This document shows, one piece after another, positions 52,960 to 58,461 of a DNA stretch of 64,000 nt; position 1 is the first letter of the stretch; each line of letters opens with the position of its first letter. The stretch lies in assembly GCF_023698535.1 (NCBI RefSeq), contig NZ_JALJCL010000013.1:57426-121425 (forward strand), given 5' to 3'. A model generated the notes under the pieces. That model was not told the origin of the DNA. It saw only the letters and a program-made list of their open reading frames with translations, and searched no databases. A program made the position numbers and the translations under genes. The stretch comes from Halorientalis regularis. Lineage in GTDB: Archaea > Halobacteriota > Halobacteria > Halobacteriales > Haloarculaceae.

Positions 52960-53203
52960 GTGTGTCACCTCCGTTGGAGAGCGGCGCGAGAATCGACCCG
53001 TGCGAACCGATGAGTTCGCAGGGAGATTCTCGGTCGGTGCGAGCGGCGAGACGCGACGCGTCGAGCCGCGAGCCGCGCGGTAGCACCGCGAGCCACACTC
53101 CGATGCGCGAGGAACGATTCGAACGCTCGTCTCGGCCCTGGCGAGGCCGCGTGATCGGCCAGGCTACACCACTCGCGCGCACTTCGAAAAATTGGAATCC
53201 GCA

Positions 53204-54733: not shown

Positions 54734-54798
54734 ACTACCACCGGAGCCGTAACAGACGGCTCCAGACTGACTGCCAGCGGGGACCGCAGGCAGCGAAC

Positions 54799-54985
54799 GC
54801 CCTCGGCAGGAGTCGAACCAGAGGAAGACTCGCGCTCCGCGCGAGACTTCCAGGGCTCAAATTCGCTTTGCGAATTTGAACCTGCGACACCCGGCTTCGA
54901 AGGCCGGTGTCCCCGCGAACGGAGTGAGCGGGGGCTCGTCAGAGCTTGCTCTGACGGTGCTCTGTCCAGACTGAGCTACGAGGGC
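54799..54985 (-). tRNA. tRNA-Arg(TCG) with two hairpin insertions
   Basis: Acceptor GCCCTCG/CGAGGGC pairs fully, and the anticodon arm is CCGGC-CTTCGAA-GCCGG. The gene is 187 nt because of two insertions. The first, ~47 nt between D-arm and anticodon arm, contains GTCAGAGC-AA-GCTCTGAC and CCCCGC...GCGGGG hairpins. The second, ~65 nt in the T-loop between T-stem strands GCAGG and CCTGC, has AAATTCGC/GCGAATTT and an 11-bp GC-rich hairpin. Removing both leaves a normal 74-75-nt tRNA. Confidence 0.8.
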
Positions 54986-54989
54986 AGGC

Positions 54990-55123
54990 AGTGGTCGGAA
55001 GATCACCGGCGCGTGTGGATCAGCATGCTACCAGATTACACCAGGGCGGAGGTTCCGCCCCCAGGATTCGAACCCGGATCTCCGGCTCTTGAGGCGAAGG
55101 AACGCGCCGGTTCGACGACCACT
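54990..55123 (-). ncRNA. Candidate Y RNA 1 with complete tRNA-like domain
   Basis: 134 nt. Closing helix AGTGGTCG/CGACCACT; internal loop TCGAA against TGATCTTC; second helix CCGGCGCG/CGCGCCGG. Inside are, in order, a short segment with GCCTC...GAGCC, a T-arm (CCGGG-TTCGAAT-CCTGG, 55061-55077), a closed acceptor-like hairpin (GGGCGGA-ACC-TCCGCCC, 55044-55060) and a D-arm (TGGTGTAATCTGGTAGCATG, 55024-55043). The order is that of a tRNA whose anticodon arm is replaced by the long helix and whose acceptor end is closed. This matches the tRNA-mimic module of bacterial YrlA RNAs. It starts 4 nt from tRNA-Arg and ~260 nt from the Ro60 start. Confidence 0.75.
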
Positions 55124-55132
55124 ATGAGTGGT

Positions 55133-55273
55133 GGCGACCGGGAAACCATCGGAACGGGGTCCGGTGTCGGGACGCTCCCTTTGCCCGGACTTCACGATAG
55201 ACCGGCTGGTCTACCGCCGAGATTTGAACCCGGGGAATCCTGAGCGAAGTAACGCTCCGACTCGACGGTCGCC
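55133..55273 (-). ncRNA. Candidate Y RNA 2
   Basis: 141 nt, 9 nt from candidate 1. Closing helix GGCGACCG/CGGTCGCC; internal loop TCGAG against TGGTTTCC; second helix TCGGAGCG/CGTTCCGA with one G-U pair. A T-arm (CCGGG-TTCAAAT-CTCGG, 55217-55233) is followed directly by a closed hairpin (CGGTAGACC...GGTCTATCG, 55195-55216). A third hairpin (GTCCGG...CCGGAC) sits where candidate 1 has its D-arm. Helix lengths and loop sizes are identical to candidate 1, while helix bases differ by compensatory changes. Confidence 0.7.
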
Positions 55274-55286
55274 GCAATGACTGGTG

Positions 55287-55371
55287 GGTGGCCGGAAAAC
55301 CGATGGAGCGGGTGCGGGAGTTGACCCCGCTGGGTGCCAGAGTGAAGGAACGCTCCGTCTCCACGGCCACC
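55287..55371 (-). ncRNA. Candidate Y RNA 3 (short form)
   Basis: 85 nt. Closing helix GGTGGCCG/CGGCCACC; internal loop TGGAG against CGGTTTTC; second helix ACGGAGCG/CGCTCCAT with one C-A mismatch. The interior is reduced to a small hairpin (CTGG...CCAG) and a T-arm-like hairpin (GCGGG-GTCAACT-CCCGC, 55314-55330). It shares the 8-5/8-8 helix-loop plan with the two neighbouring copies, supporting a common binding function for the stem. Confidence 0.65.
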
Positions 55372-55398: not shown

Positions 55399-55525
55399 GC
55401 CGGCAGAGCGGATCGAACGCTCACAGCCACCTTACAAGGGTGGTGTCCTCGTGAGGCCCGGTAGGCCGAACGAGGGCTCGTCAGAGCTCGCTCTGACGGT
55501 GCTCTGCCAGTTGAGCTATGCCGGC
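55399..55525 (-). tRNA. tRNA-Thr(TGT) with hairpin insertion
   Basis: Acceptor GCCGGCA/TGCCGGC, anticodon arm CCACC-CTTGTAA-GGGTGG, T-arm GAGCG-TTCGATC-CGCTC. Between the D-arm and anticodon arm is a ~56-nt insertion with the GTCAGAGCGAGCTCTGAC hairpin also found in tRNA-Arg(TCG) and a second hairpin CCTCGT...ACGAGG. Total 127 nt. Confidence 0.8.
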
Positions 55526-55547: not shown

Positions 55548-55618
55548 CCCGAAGCCTGCGCCAGGGATCGAACCTGGACGGCATCCATACCACGGAAGTG
55601 CTCTGCCAATTGAGCTAC
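55548..55618 (-). tRNA. tRNA-Thr(GGT)
   Basis: Acceptor GCCTGTG/CGCAGGC, anticodon loop GTGGTAT, T-arm CCAGG-TTCGATC-CCTGG. One mismatch in the anticodon stem and an unusual G at loop position 32. Confidence 0.75.
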
Positions 55619-55628
55619 ACAGGCGCAG

Positions 55629-55701
55629 GGCCGGGTGTGAGTCTCGAACTCACTGCTCGGTCGTCACAGGACCGAAGGTTCCCTGGTACCCCAACCCGGC
55701 C
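55629..55701 (-). tRNA. tRNA-His(GTG)
   Basis: Acceptor GCCGGGT/ACCCGGC with an encoded extra 5' G opposite C73, as expected for tRNA-His; anticodon arm GGTC-CTGTGAC-GACC; T-arm GTGAG-TTCGAGA-CTCAC. Confidence 0.8.
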
Positions 55702-55729
55702 ATACAATTTCCCGCCAACGGCGGGGAAT

Positions 55730-55800
55730 GGAGCGACCAGGACTCGAACCTGGACCGCCAGCGTTTCAGGCTGGTGCTCTCCCAATTGAGCTATCGCTCC
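55730..55800 (-). tRNA. tRNA-Phe(GAA)
   Basis: Acceptor GGAGCGA/TCGCTCC, anticodon arm CCAGC-CTGAAAC-GCTGG, T-arm CCAGG-TTCGAGT-CCTGG. All stems are perfect. Confidence 0.85.
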
Positions 55801-55805
55801 GCAGT

Positions 55806-55880
55806 GCTTCCGAAGGGAATTGAACCCTCGACTTCCAGCTCGAAAGGCTGGCGTCCCTCGCCATCGGGGACTCCGGAAGC
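55806..55880 (-). tRNA. tRNA-Glu(TTC)
   Basis: Acceptor GCTTCCG/CGGAAGC, anticodon arm CCAGC-CTTTCGA-GCTGG, T-arm GAGGG-TTCAATT-CCCTT. The D-stem is extended (GTCCC...GGGAC). Confidence 0.8.
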
Positions 55881-55886
55881 ACAGAA

Positions 55887-56025
55887 GCCGCGGATCGGAT
55901 TCGAACCACGTCCGGACGTGCTCACTGCGTTGCGGCCGCCGGGTTTGCTCTGGAAACCGCCGGTTTCCAGACCGATGTGATCCTGCTCTGCGGGCAGGTG
56001 CGTTCGACCACTCTGCCATCGCGGC
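55887..56025 (-). tRNA. tRNA-Cys(GCA) with T-loop insertion
   Basis: Acceptor GCCGCGA/CCGCGGC (one mismatch), D-arm GGCAGAGTGG as in haloarchaeal tRNA-Cys, anticodon arm CCTGC-CCGCAGA-GCAGG with C instead of U at position 33. The T-stem strands ATCGG and CCGAT are separated by ~70 nt holding CTGGAAACC/GGTTTCCAG and CACGTC/GACGTG hairpins. C33 makes it doubtful as a functional decoder. Confidence 0.65.
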
Positions 56026-56079
56026 CGATGGACGCCCCCGGGAGTCACGAGAAAGAAGTGAGCGTGACGCCGTCTTATT

Positions 56080-56150
56080 GGTCCGACGGAACTCGAACCC
56101 GGTGCCTCCCGCTTGCGAAGCGGGCGCTCTGCCAATTGAGCTAGGGGCCC
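56080..56150 (-). tRNA. tRNA-Ala(CGC), degenerate acceptor
   Basis: Anticodon arm CCCGC-TTCGCAA-GCGGG is perfect. The 5' acceptor GGGCCCC pairs poorly with the 3' strand TCGGACC, and the T-stem has mismatches. Possibly a decayed copy. Confidence 0.6.
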
Positions 56151-56194
56151 ACGAGAGTGAGAGTCAGGATATGCGGGACTACGCGGTCCCGAAC

Positions 56195-56267
56195 GCCTGG
56201 GGACGGAGTCGAACCGTCCACGACCAGGGTAACAGCCCGGCTCCCCCACCACGGGGGACTCCCAGGC
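56195..56267 (-). tRNA. tRNA-Asn(GTT)
   Basis: Acceptor GCCTGGG/CCCAGGC, anticodon loop CTGTTAC, T-arm GACGG-TTCGACT-CCGTC, long D-stem CCCCC...GGGGG. Confidence 0.8.
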
Positions 56268-56279
56268 ACGAGAAAGAGG

Positions 56280-56351
56280 GGGCCCGACGGGATTCGAACC
56301 CGCTATCTTGCGGTTAAAAGCCGCCTGCCTGTACTCATAGGCTCCAGGCCC
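56280..56351 (-). tRNA. tRNA-Lys(TTT)
   Basis: Acceptor GGGCCTG/CGGGCCC, anticodon loop CTTTTAA between GCGG and CCGC, T-arm GCGGG-TTCGAAT-CCCGT. Confidence 0.8.
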
Positions 56352-56355
56352 GCAT

Positions 56356-56428
56356 GCGTCACCCCGGATTCGAACCGAGACTACTGGCTTGGAAGGCCAG
56401 TGTCCTCGCCAGATTAGACCAGTGACGC
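56356..56428 (-). tRNA. tRNA-Gly(TCC)
   Basis: Acceptor GCGTCAC/GTGACGC, anticodon arm CTGGC-CTTCCAA-GCCAG, T-arm CTCGG-TTCGAAT-CCGGG. Confidence 0.8.
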
Positions 56429-56435
56429 AAGAGTA

Positions 56436-56507
56436 GACACCCCCGGGACTCGAACCCAGAGCCTTCGTCCTGCCAGGACGCTGCTCTGCCGATTGAGCTA
56501 GGGGCCC
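56436..56507 (-). tRNA. tRNA-Ala(GGC), degenerate acceptor
   Basis: Anticodon loop CTGGCAG with an imperfect stem; T-arm CTGGG-TTCGAGT-CCCGG. The acceptor strands GGGCCCC and GGGTGTC have several mismatches, so this may be a non-functional copy. Confidence 0.55.
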
Positions 56508-56543
56508 GCGTGGCACCGAGGACCTCCAACCCTCGCTGCCAAT

Positions 56544-56613
56544 GGACGCACGAGGAATCGAACCTCGATCACAGCCTCGTGAGGGCCATATCTTGCCGTT
56601 GGACCATGCGTCC
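56544..56613 (-). tRNA. tRNA-Val(CAC)
   Basis: Acceptor GGACGCA/TGCGTCC, anticodon loop CTCACGA, T-arm CGAGG-TTCGATT-CCTCG. Confidence 0.8.
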
Positions 56614-56618
56614 TGAGT

Positions 56619-56691
56619 GGGCACGGGAGGACTCGAACCTCCGACGAATCCGTTATCAGCGGATCTCTCTGACCAACTGAGGTACGCACCC
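56619..56691 (-). tRNA. tRNA-Ile(GAT)
   Basis: Acceptor GGGTGCG/CGTGCCC with G-U pairs, anticodon arm ATCCG-CTGATAA-CGGAT, T-arm GGAGG-TTCGAGT-CCTCC. Confidence 0.85.
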
Positions 56692-56695
56692 GGAT

Positions 56696-56767
56696 TGGCG
56701 GGGCAGGAGTCGAACCTGCGATCTCGCCGGAGTCAGCGGCGCGTCCACTCCACTGGACTACCCGCCA
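56696..56767 (-). tRNA. tRNA-Val(GAC)
   Basis: Acceptor TGGCGGG/CCCGCCA, anticodon arm CGCCG-CTGACTC-CGGCG, T-arm GCAGG-TTCGACT-CCTGC. Confidence 0.8.
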
Positions 56768-56905: not shown

Positions 56906-57123
56906 TATAACAGCTGGAGAGTCCCGCCCTTCCGGTGAGGGACGAGTGTTCCGACATACGGTCGGAACCGAGGACCGAACAGGGCGGGCGTGAAGCGCGT
57001 AAGCTCTAATGAGATTCTGCCGAGAGATTGTTGGCCCTGAGTCTCCAACAAGACGGACGAGGTTCACTTCCACTGCGGATGGCTGACATTCAAACCCGAA
57101 GCGGACGTACACAGGATTGTCTG

Positions 57124-58461
57124 ATGAAGCGTACCAACACGTTTGCCGTGCGACTGCTCTCCAACGAAGAGGAGCAAGTGCTACGGGACTTGTTGGACGC
57201 TTCCGCCGCTCTCTGGAACGAAGTCAATTACCAGCGCCTCATGCGGTACAACGACGAAGACGGCTTCAAGGGCGACGTGTGGGACGCCGATACAGGCCGA
57301 CTCGAAGGTAAGTACAAAGGTGTTCTCGGTGCGTCCACCGCCCAACAAGTAATTGGGAAAAACACCGAAGCGTGGGAGTCGTTCTTCACGCTCAAAGACC
57401 AGTATCACGACGAGTCAAACACGTCGGTCACAGAACACCCCGAACCGCCGGGATTCCGCGGGAACGAAGACGACGGACGTGTTCTCAAAGGCGTCATTCG
57501 CAAAGATGCGTACACTGTCGAATGGGGTGAACGGTCCCGACTTGAGATAGTCGTCGGAGAACAACTCCGAGACAGGCACAACAGCCCGAAAAGCCGTCTT
57601 CGGCTGGAAGTCGTTGGCGACCCGAACTGGCCTGACTACGAAGACCAGAGCCGGTTGGAATTGTGGTACGACGAGACTGACAGCACCTTCCGAGCTTCGC
57701 AACCCGTGACTATTACTGATGCACGGGACACTCCACTGGCCTCAGAGACGGCCGCTCTGGACATTGGTGCAAACAATCTCGTCGCCTGTACCACCACGAC
57801 CGGCGAGCAATATCTGTACGAGGGCCGCGAGTTGTTCCAGCGATTCCGTGAGACGACACGAGAGATTGCCCGGTTACAATCCAAGCTCCCGGAAGGCCAG
57901 TACAGTAGTGAGCGTATCCAGCGACTGTACCGGAAACGCACCCGTCGCCGCGACCACGCTCAAGAAGCACTATGTCGTGATCTGCTAGACCGACTGTACG
58001 CCGAAGGTGTCGATACCGTGTATATCGGTGGTTTGACCGACGTGCTGGATACACACTGGTCGGTCGAAACCAACGCCAAGACCCACAACTTCTGGGCGTT
58101 CAAGCAATTCACCGAACGACTGGCGTGTACCGCCGAGGAATACGGTATCTCCGTCGAGGTCCAGTCAGAGGCGTGGACGAGCCAAGAGTGCCCGCAGTGT
58201 GGCGGCATAGACCGAACGACACGGCATCAGGACACGCTTACCTGTCCGTGTGGGTTCGAAGGGCACGCCGACCTCACAGCGTCAGAAACGTTCCTGAAGC
58301 GTCATTCAGAGAAGACAGTCAGGCCGATGGCACGGCCCGTGCGGTTCGAGTGGGACGACCACAACTGGTCGGAGTTACCACGCTCTCACCGTCCCAAAGA
58401 ACAGCGCACAGACCCGAGTACCGTCCACCACAACGGGAATGTTGCCTCCGGGGAGTCGTAG
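57124..58461 (+). CDS. tnpB: TnpB RNA-guided nuclease (IS200/IS605 family)
   Basis: ATG at 57124 gives the usual haloarchaeal start [12 protein letters not shown]; 445 aa. The split RuvC nuclease is seen as [10 protein letters not shown] near residue 212, [14 protein letters not shown] near 298 (at the usual catalytic Glu strand the residue reads Gly, so the Glu may be lost) and HADLTASE near 380. The four-Cys zinc finger is CPQCGG...CPCGF near 356-378. TnpB is guided by an omega RNA from the element's 3' end. A non-canonical residue at the second RuvC site would make it cleavage-deficient; this needs alignment. Confidence 0.88.

Follow-up and report, generated by a model that had tools for sequence, protein, structure and literature searches.

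We analysed a 64,000-nucleotide stretch of the Halorientalis regularis contig NZ_JALJCL010000013.1 (hereafter the window), in which three consecutive minus-strand units (u1, u2 and u3) occupy positions 54,990-55,371, just upstream of a Ro60 gene. The order on this strand is tRNA array, units, tRNA-Arg(TCG), Ro60 and tRNA-Gly(GCC) (Table 1), and ARAGORN calls place the same order in four other loci (L005, L012, L025 and L034). The tRNA-Arg, the tRNA-Thr and a tRNA-Cys are interrupted, behind the D-arm and/or within the T-arm, by stem-loops of about 50-65 nt, which may be non-canonical introns; the L034 homologue of the tRNA-Arg is uninterrupted. An IS200/605-type OrfB (TnpB-like) gene was also observed inside the tRNA array.

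Table 1. Features of the Ro60 locus, in window coordinates.
Feature	Position	Strand	Basis and remarks
tRNA-Gly(GCC)	53104..53178	-	ARAGORN; directly downstream of Ro60
Ro60 gene (TROVE + vWA), 509 aa	53204..54733	-	Pfam TROVE, PDB sequence matches, fold
Hairpin before Ro60 ATG	54743..54763	-	GGAGCCG-type stem, CTGTT-type loop
tRNA-Arg(TCG), two inserts	54799..54985	-	sequence; starts 4 nt past u1; no ARAGORN call
Y unit 1 (u1), YrlA-like	54990..55123	-	two helices flanking a 5/8 loop; tRNA-like module in permuted order
u1 outer helix, 5' strand	55116..55123	-	partner 54990-54997
u1 internal loop	55111-55115 opposite 54998-55005	-	sequence and RNAalifold alignment
u1 inner helix, 5' strand	55103..55110	-	partner 55006-55013
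u1 anticodon-like arm TTCGC-CTCAAGA-GCCGG	55082..55098	-	4/5 paired, two G-U, one C-C mismatch, U33 present
u1 T-arm CCGGG-TTCGAAT-CCTGG	55061..55077	-	alignment and arm script
u1 closed acceptor-like hairpin GGGCGGA-ACC-TCCGCCC	55044..55060	-	arm script
u1 D-arm GTGT-AATCTGGTA-GCAT	55025..55041	-	arm script
Y unit 2 (u2)	55133..55273	-	common stem, T-arm-like hairpin, acceptor-like hairpin, extra stem-loop
Y unit 3 (u3)	55287..55371	-	common stem; T-arm-like hairpin as sole head element
tRNA-Thr(TGT), insert after D-arm	55399..55525	-	sequence; precedes u3; no ARAGORN call
tRNA array upstream of Y units	55553..56767	-	12 ARAGORN tRNAs, Thr to Val
tRNA-Cys, insert-bearing	55887..56025	-	by eye; no ARAGORN call
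IS200/605-type OrfB (TnpB-like) gene	57028..58461	+	

The protein encoded next to the units is Ro60, which acts in RNA quality control. Its TROVE domain scores 73 bits with Pfam PF05731 (cut-off 23) and its vWA domain 25.2 bits with Pfam vWA_Ro60, below the cut-off of 27.7; residues D327, S329, S331, T398 and D422, which we take to be the vWA metal-site motif (DxSxS, T, D), are invariant across 14 aligned sequences. A search of PDB sequences returned two strong matches, both TROVE proteins (E 1.6e-27), one of which (9l5y) is titled Ro60 of Thermus phage phiLo. The AlphaFold model, obtained from the 14-row alignment (mean pLDDT 68, pTM 0.61), matches Ro60/TROVE structures best (TM 0.63; Deinococcus Rsr 2nvo, E 5e-10), and every PDB match below E 0.001 (13 in number) is to a TROVE or Ro60 entry. 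Just before a GGTGATAG-type sequence and the Ro60 ATG lies a hairpin with a similar counterpart in the eight Ro60 loci compared (its stem is changed in L025); control of Ro60 translation is a possible role.

The initial annotation had described three units built on one plan, and their coordinates, helices and loops were confirmed as written. An 8-bp outer helix, an internal loop of 5 nt opposite 8 nt and an inner helix are common to u1 (AGTGGTCG, TCGAA and CCGGCGCG on the 5' side; CGCGCCGG, TGATCTTC and CGACCACT on the 3' side), u2 (GGCGACCG, TCGAG and TCGGAGCG; CGTTCCGA, TGGTTTCC and CGGTCGCC) and u3 (GGTGGCCG, TGGAG and ACGGAGCG; CGCTCCAT, CGGTTTTC and CGGCCACC). The inner helix of 8 bp claimed for every unit stood in u1 and u2 but not fully in u3, where one C-A mismatch leaves 7/8 paired; the structure favoured by RNAalifold has an inner helix of 9 bp and a 4/7 loop. 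A T-arm was said to follow the second helix throughout: u1 has one, and the corresponding elements of u2 and u3 are T-arm-like hairpins. The closed acceptor-like hairpin and the D-arm attributed to u1 are both present. Another stem-loop takes the place of this D-arm in u2, and acceptor and D arms are absent from u3. In the RNAalifold alignment of u2-type units, this third stem-loop has a conserved GACAAAG...CGACAC internal loop.

When the units were folded singly, as the initial annotation had proposed, the outer helix formed in all three, but local hairpins replace the inner helix in the minimum-energy fold of u2. Each unit folds more stably than its dinucleotide shuffles, with z values of -3.14 (u1), -3.46 (u2) and -3.63 (u3). 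The geometry by itself (a span of 80-150 with 8 outer pairs, a 5/8 loop and 7/8 or more inner pairs) is not rare in this GC-rich DNA, with 26 matches on each strand of the window (overlapping registers counted) and a mean of 12.45 and a maximum of 25 in 40 first-order Markov sequences (one strand). Given these many chance matches, bare geometry was rejected as proof and, since it is common by chance, the case rests on the common sequence and on relatives.

Three alignments of relatives were made, comprising u1-type units (A1, 19 sequences), u2-type units (A2, 25) and short units (A3, 20), which together hold 64 of 130 distinct units; near-duplicates, insert-bearing units and short units with other heads were omitted. 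Covariance models were built from such alignments, not from the three window units alone: R1 from A1 and R2 from A3, whose 20 sequences include u3, with u1 and u2 outside the set. R2 finds exactly u1-u3 in the window (E 2e-25, 8e-15 and 1e-12; next best E 0.15), and R1 detects u2 (E 9e-15) and u3 (E 4e-12), neither of which is among its training sequences; u2 is thus detected by both models although it lies outside both training sets. RNAalifold reports two-sided compensatory changes at 16/34 pairs in A1, 17/31 in A2 and 9/22 in A3. Pair counting (with 29 pairs in A2) finds 98.8%, 98.1% and 97.7% of cells paired in A1, A2 and A3, and pairing falls to 29-55% when the 3' partners are slid out of register. 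None of 500 shuffles matched the observed paired cells, double-change pairs, double-change cells or covariation score; on a fifth measure, further pair types, the observed value was reached by 6/500 shuffles for A1, 114/500 for A2 and 21/500 for A3. Counts of this kind are inflated by the relatedness of the sequences. The covariation first noticed among the three window units extends to homologous loci, in which pairing is kept. Judged from these alignments, the stem has the form of a Y RNA terminal helix with a conserved internal loop.

A protein scan gave 36 haloarchaeal Ro60 loci with organism titles (L003-L038), and in 35 of them the 1 kb that precedes Ro60 contains units, 107 in total. 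Loci with three units prevail (28 loci), with four units in 4, five in 1 and one in 2 (range 1-5). The contigs of the two single-unit loci (L014 and L029) start just upstream, and the locus in which no unit was found (L004) is an additional Ro60 copy that shares its contig with L035. Units are likewise found upstream of Ro60 in the plasmid loci L011, L020, L024 and L036. Both helices are fully paired (8/8 each) and the 3' loop has 8 nt in 84/107 units, and 105/107 have at least 7/8 pairs in both helices together with a 3' loop of this length, proportions that are not independent tests because the units were preselected by a 23-nt anchor (mismatches allowed) and by pairing. The 5' loop reads TCGAG in 63/107 units and the 8-nt 3' loop is more variable (commonest CAGTTTTC, 22/107), while the seven bases past the inner helix read TTNCTTC in 73/107 and NTNCTTC in 88/107. 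The last unit ends 2-6 nt before a tRNA-Arg in 37/48 loci checked; among the other 11 rows, eight had their last unit dropped as a duplicate, the tRNA of L011 and that of L047 have an altered D-arm, and in L032 this tRNA is missing. A minimal form occurs in G182, with one unit directly before Ro60.

Two further observations concern individual loci. Extra units lie 2.2-2.4 kb upstream of Ro60, deeper within the tRNA arrays, at L005:2680-2821 and L035:2600-2676. At L062:2520-2711 and L032:4676-4861 the heads of the units contain stem-loop inserts (GGAAG...CTTCC) resembling the tRNA inserts, with which they perhaps form one intron family.

The covariance-model search near other TROVE genes that had been suggested as a check was carried out with R2 in 391 haloarchaeal genomes. 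TROVE was found in 43 genomes and R2 matches in 44, 41 being common to both (hypergeometric 1.8e-49, kinship ignored), and 96/99 R2 matches adjoin TROVE: they share its strand and precede it, at distances of 662-1514 bp. This count is partly so by construction, as the 20 training sequences of R2 come from Ro60 neighbourhoods, up to 20 of the 391 genomes having supplied one each; its informative part is that nothing convincing was found away from TROVE. The RNA-only matches (G140, G323 and G309) were taken as false: they overlap mechanical ORFs of 670, 161 and 164 aa, the one in G309 being the least convincing, and no ARAGORN tRNA was found in the 8 kb around them. No R2 match accompanied three of 47 TROVE places in this search (G233, G328 and one of two in G267), and weaker, more divergent units are those of G233 (E 4e-7), G328 (E 6e-8) and G022 (E 1e-7). 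The unit gene is linked to Ro60, as in prokaryotic Y RNAs.

The head of u1-type units presents, in order, an anticodon-like hairpin, a 4-nt variable region, a T-arm (TTCGAAT loop), the acceptor 3' strand, a short loop, the acceptor 5' strand and a D-arm with GG. The anticodon-like hairpin is found in 21/21 haloarchaeal u1-type units (4/5 paired in 17, 5/5 in 4) and U33 in 20/21; its 5' side, TTCGC, is invariant, so there is no covariation on that side. Acceptor hairpin and D-arm are found in 19/21, the exceptions being L062, which carries an insert, and L064. In these counts the D-arms picked for L015 and L056 are odd, the script takes the best of five variable-region lengths, and row L035:4487 is of u2 type and falls outside the 21. 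We read the u1 head as what would be a whole tRNA, opened at a point between its D-arm and its anticodon arm where the Ro60 stem is placed. Circularly permuted tRNA genes have a bulge-helix-bulge splice motif at their ends. Inspection of the aligned stems by eye revealed no such motif (two 3-nt bulges around 4 bp) and a 5/8 or 4/7 loop instead; permuted tRNA splicing was rejected, the canonical splice motif not being seen.

We compared the units with bacterial and phage Y RNAs in both directions. The Rfam YrlA model (RF02553) matches u1 over its full length with parts in identical order (19.2 bits, E 0.32); among 14 loci with u1-type units it matches six at 24.6-32.4 bits (E 0.003-0.53) and gives no match at E 5 or better in eight. 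Neither u1 nor its best archaeal relative (32.4 bits) reaches the gathering cut-off of 69 bits, below which phage and Deinococcus units (at most 50 bits) and the Rhizobium one (56.1) also fall. R1, trained on haloarchaeal u1-type units only, finds units in three of the eight Ro60 loci from bacteria or phages that were tried. Xanthomonas phage Olaya has three in tandem upstream of Ro60 (L131; E 2e-14, 2e-12 and 2e-7), as does Caulobacter phage CcrColossus (L134; E 6e-11, 2e-8 and 2e-5, with a fourth, weak match on the opposite strand), and a plasmid of Deinococcus taeanensis has one (L127; E 7e-12). The best R1 scores outside units, on tRNA-array sequence, are about 27 bits versus 54 for Olaya. 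Rfam marks the same three loci and L133 (Rhizobium), and no unit was found by either model in L128, L129, L130 and L132, the L132 matches being on tRNAs. With YrlA recognising u1-type units below threshold and R1 recognising the phage and Deinococcus units, homology is shown both ways, and u1-type units appear recognisably homologous to phage and Deinococcus Y RNAs. The Olaya, CcrColossus and D. taeanensis units carry no Y RNA annotation in their records. In CcrColossus, the head of a Y-like unit (L134:651-815) is annotated as tRNA-Gln at 655-722, and permuted heads may be misannotated as tRNAs elsewhere.

The survey extended to viruses and to a second archaeal family of the phylum. Halogranum tailed virus 1 (HGTV-1; L069, NC_021328) encodes a Ro60 of 46.6% identity near RtcB and an intron-bearing tRNA-Asp, and neither R1 nor R2 finds a Y unit at this locus; HGTV-1 was rejected as a carrier, its 26.9-bit R1 match spanning two annotated tRNA-Gly genes. 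Searching viral contigs for Ro60 returned one distant locus (25% identity), and the exact pattern of the u2 5' strand occurs in none of the viral contigs. Five TROVE loci of the second family were inspected (L109, L113, L114, L115 and L116). In L113, L115 and L116 a candidate unit (TGGAGG-TGTGA-GGAGAG-ATAC...CTCTCC-TCTTATT-CCTCC[AG]) directly follows a tRNA, and as its helices hardly vary the support it offers is that of a conserved shape; no candidate was seen in L114. The YrlA-like RNA of L109, a TROVE locus in another archaeal genome (Rfam 33 bits; R1 E 4e-9), was set aside as probably lying on a bacterial contig in a draft genome, with AT-rich surroundings and what we take to be a sigma70-like promoter, judged by eye against the consensus.

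The conserved covarying stem, the linkage to Ro60 and the homology to bacterial and phage Y RNAs support the identification of the units as archaeal Y RNAs made in the initial annotation. They have in common a covarying stem of two helices, conserved just upstream of almost all haloarchaeal Ro60 genes examined, and are very probably transcribed Y RNAs, predicted to bind the Ro60 ring via that stem. We infer that the units would be cut from one tRNA-Y-tRNA-Ro60 transcript, in which RNase P cleavage at the tRNA-Arg would define where u1 ends on its 3' side and the array would be released by tRNA 3' processing. Ro60 would be loaded by the constant stem. The heads, which vary (in u1 a mimic of a permuted tRNA, in u2 a T-arm with two stem-loops, in u3 only a T-arm), would control access to the hole of Ro60 or serve as docking sites for partners; different heads could thereby yield Ro60 RNPs that differ in their specificity for structured RNAs such as misfolded tRNA.

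A ribonuclease partner may also be proposed. Passages of PMC7790460 and PMC8394870 describe a Deinococcus Y RNA that tethers Rsr to PNPase. The RNase_PH family gave no match in the H. regularis genome (given as 99.99% complete), and it is present in 12/14 control genomes, Haloferax volcanii being a control without a match. The PNPase of RYPER (the Rsr-YrlA-PNPase machine) was not found, and with no RNase_PH match this machine, in its known form, is inapplicable here; if the genome is without both PNPase and the archaeal exosome, as the search says, neither can serve as the partner. Our best guess is an RNase R-like RNB enzyme, and the RNB family has one match in the genome. In Allomeiothermus silvanus pMESIL01 (L129), a TROVE gene is followed by the gene of an RNB-domain ribonuclease. 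The PNPase-tether model would need changing in view of the missing RNase_PH in this genome and in Haloferax volcanii. More tentatively, and as a possibility that we would not yet favour, archaea could possess their own version of the Ro60-Y RNA machine. In it a single ring would be served by Y RNAs, usually three, that are excised from a tRNA operon; one of these would be an entire tRNA, anticodon-like arm included, in circular permutation about the stem that binds Ro60, and an RNase R-type enzyme would take part since PNPase and exosome are absent.

As regards function, we regard as rather unlikely that the Ro60-bound tRNA mimics act as decoys or sensors for host tRNA-cutting nucleases on mobile elements with spare tRNAs. 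A decoy role is suggested for YrlA in a passage of PMC7790460, Ro60 resides on plasmids in several haloarchaea with units upstream in all four plasmid loci named above, HGTV-1 carries Ro60 with many tRNAs and RtcB, and u1 has an anticodon-like loop; but the short units are without an anticodon loop, no RNA ligase or recognised RNA-cutting enzyme is among the 15 window proteins scanned, and the nucleases found among these are only of DNA type (AspBHI-type, HNH and PD-(D/E)XK). The array could also be a cis-acting leader for Ro60 translation or transcript stability and yield no free RNAs, as its upstream, same-strand position in 96/99 matches and the conserved hairpin before the Ro60 start codon would suggest. 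We hold this to be improbable: the tRNA-Arg between array and ORF should be excised from the transcript, tandem copies with different heads ill fit one leader, and the units have bacterial and phage homologues. Very improbable, and least probable of the three, is a reading of the units as tRNA genes of the array that are decayed or permuted, whether dead or still spliced, and have no Ro60 role. Units that sit in a tRNA array and in the u1 type hold every tRNA arm in permuted order would fit it, as would the tRNA 'pseudogenes' that passages of PMC6333295 report in almost all archaeal tRNA clusters; but u3 and other short units keep the stem without most tRNA parts, that stem covaries, only a 5/8 (4/7) loop is seen and no canonical bulge-helix-bulge, and G182 retains its unit before Ro60 with no tRNA found in 6 kb.

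The identification as Y RNAs bears on loci that are already in the literature. Passages of Morgado and Vicente 2019 (PMC6333295) report TROVE in 20/29 archaeal tRNA clusters, which are the kind of locus described here, several contigs being identical (e.g. L013, L025, L026 and L034). Those passages describe tRNAs and pseudogenes, unlike the Y unit reading given here, and the term Y RNA is absent from the full text. Elsewhere, Borg papers mention TROVE proteins (PMC11208441, PMC9605863), TROVE is listed for archaeal viruses (PMC5671483) and for some jumbo phages (PMC7824862), yrlA is noted in mycobacteria (PMC9569102), and a Ro60 review (PMC11277228) refers to animals and to certain bacteria. 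Among the matches listed in the open-access literature, a scope outside which the main Y RNA papers lie, none concerned an archaeal Y RNA, so that priority is not proven. What we rate as new is the predicted Ro60-Y RNA systems in Archaea with multi-headed tandem sets, the presence of TROVE in archaeal tRNA clusters having already been reported. Y RNAs have been described in animals and bacteria, and the units would extend them to Archaea. They would also explain the presence of TROVE genes in archaeal tRNA clusters, and several heads on one constant stem constitute a natural test of Y RNA head function.

Metazoan Y RNAs have a terminal helix with an internal loop that is thought to bind Ro60, and in this they are like the units; they are not known to have a tRNA-like module. 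Bacterial YrlA is closer to u1: it adjoins Ro60 and has a stem with a 5/8 internal loop, followed by a T-arm, a closed acceptor hairpin and a D-arm. These three arms within the stem are found in u1 and in most u1-type relatives, and not in u2 (no D-arm) or u3 (T-arm only). Compared with YrlA, the archaeal units are usually three with different heads (28/35 loci), and u1-type units have an anticodon-like arm before the T-arm that is absent from the Rfam consensus. The Olaya, CcrColossus and D. taeanensis units resemble u1 in the T-CTTC motif and in the T, acceptor and D arms, of which L131:1288 and L127 have complete sets; an anticodon-like arm with five pairs and U33 is found in 5/7 of them (e.g. 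TTCGA CTGTTAA TCGAG) and not in 2/7. They differ from the haloarchaeal units in their loop sequences, in their bacterial or phage hosts and in having no tRNA array in the 1.5-kb flanks, whereas Olaya and CcrColossus share with the haloarchaea the tandem copies upstream of Ro60. The permuted-tRNA anatomy, which u1-type units have in common with the phage units, suggests a route by which tRNA-mimicking Y RNAs may have originated.
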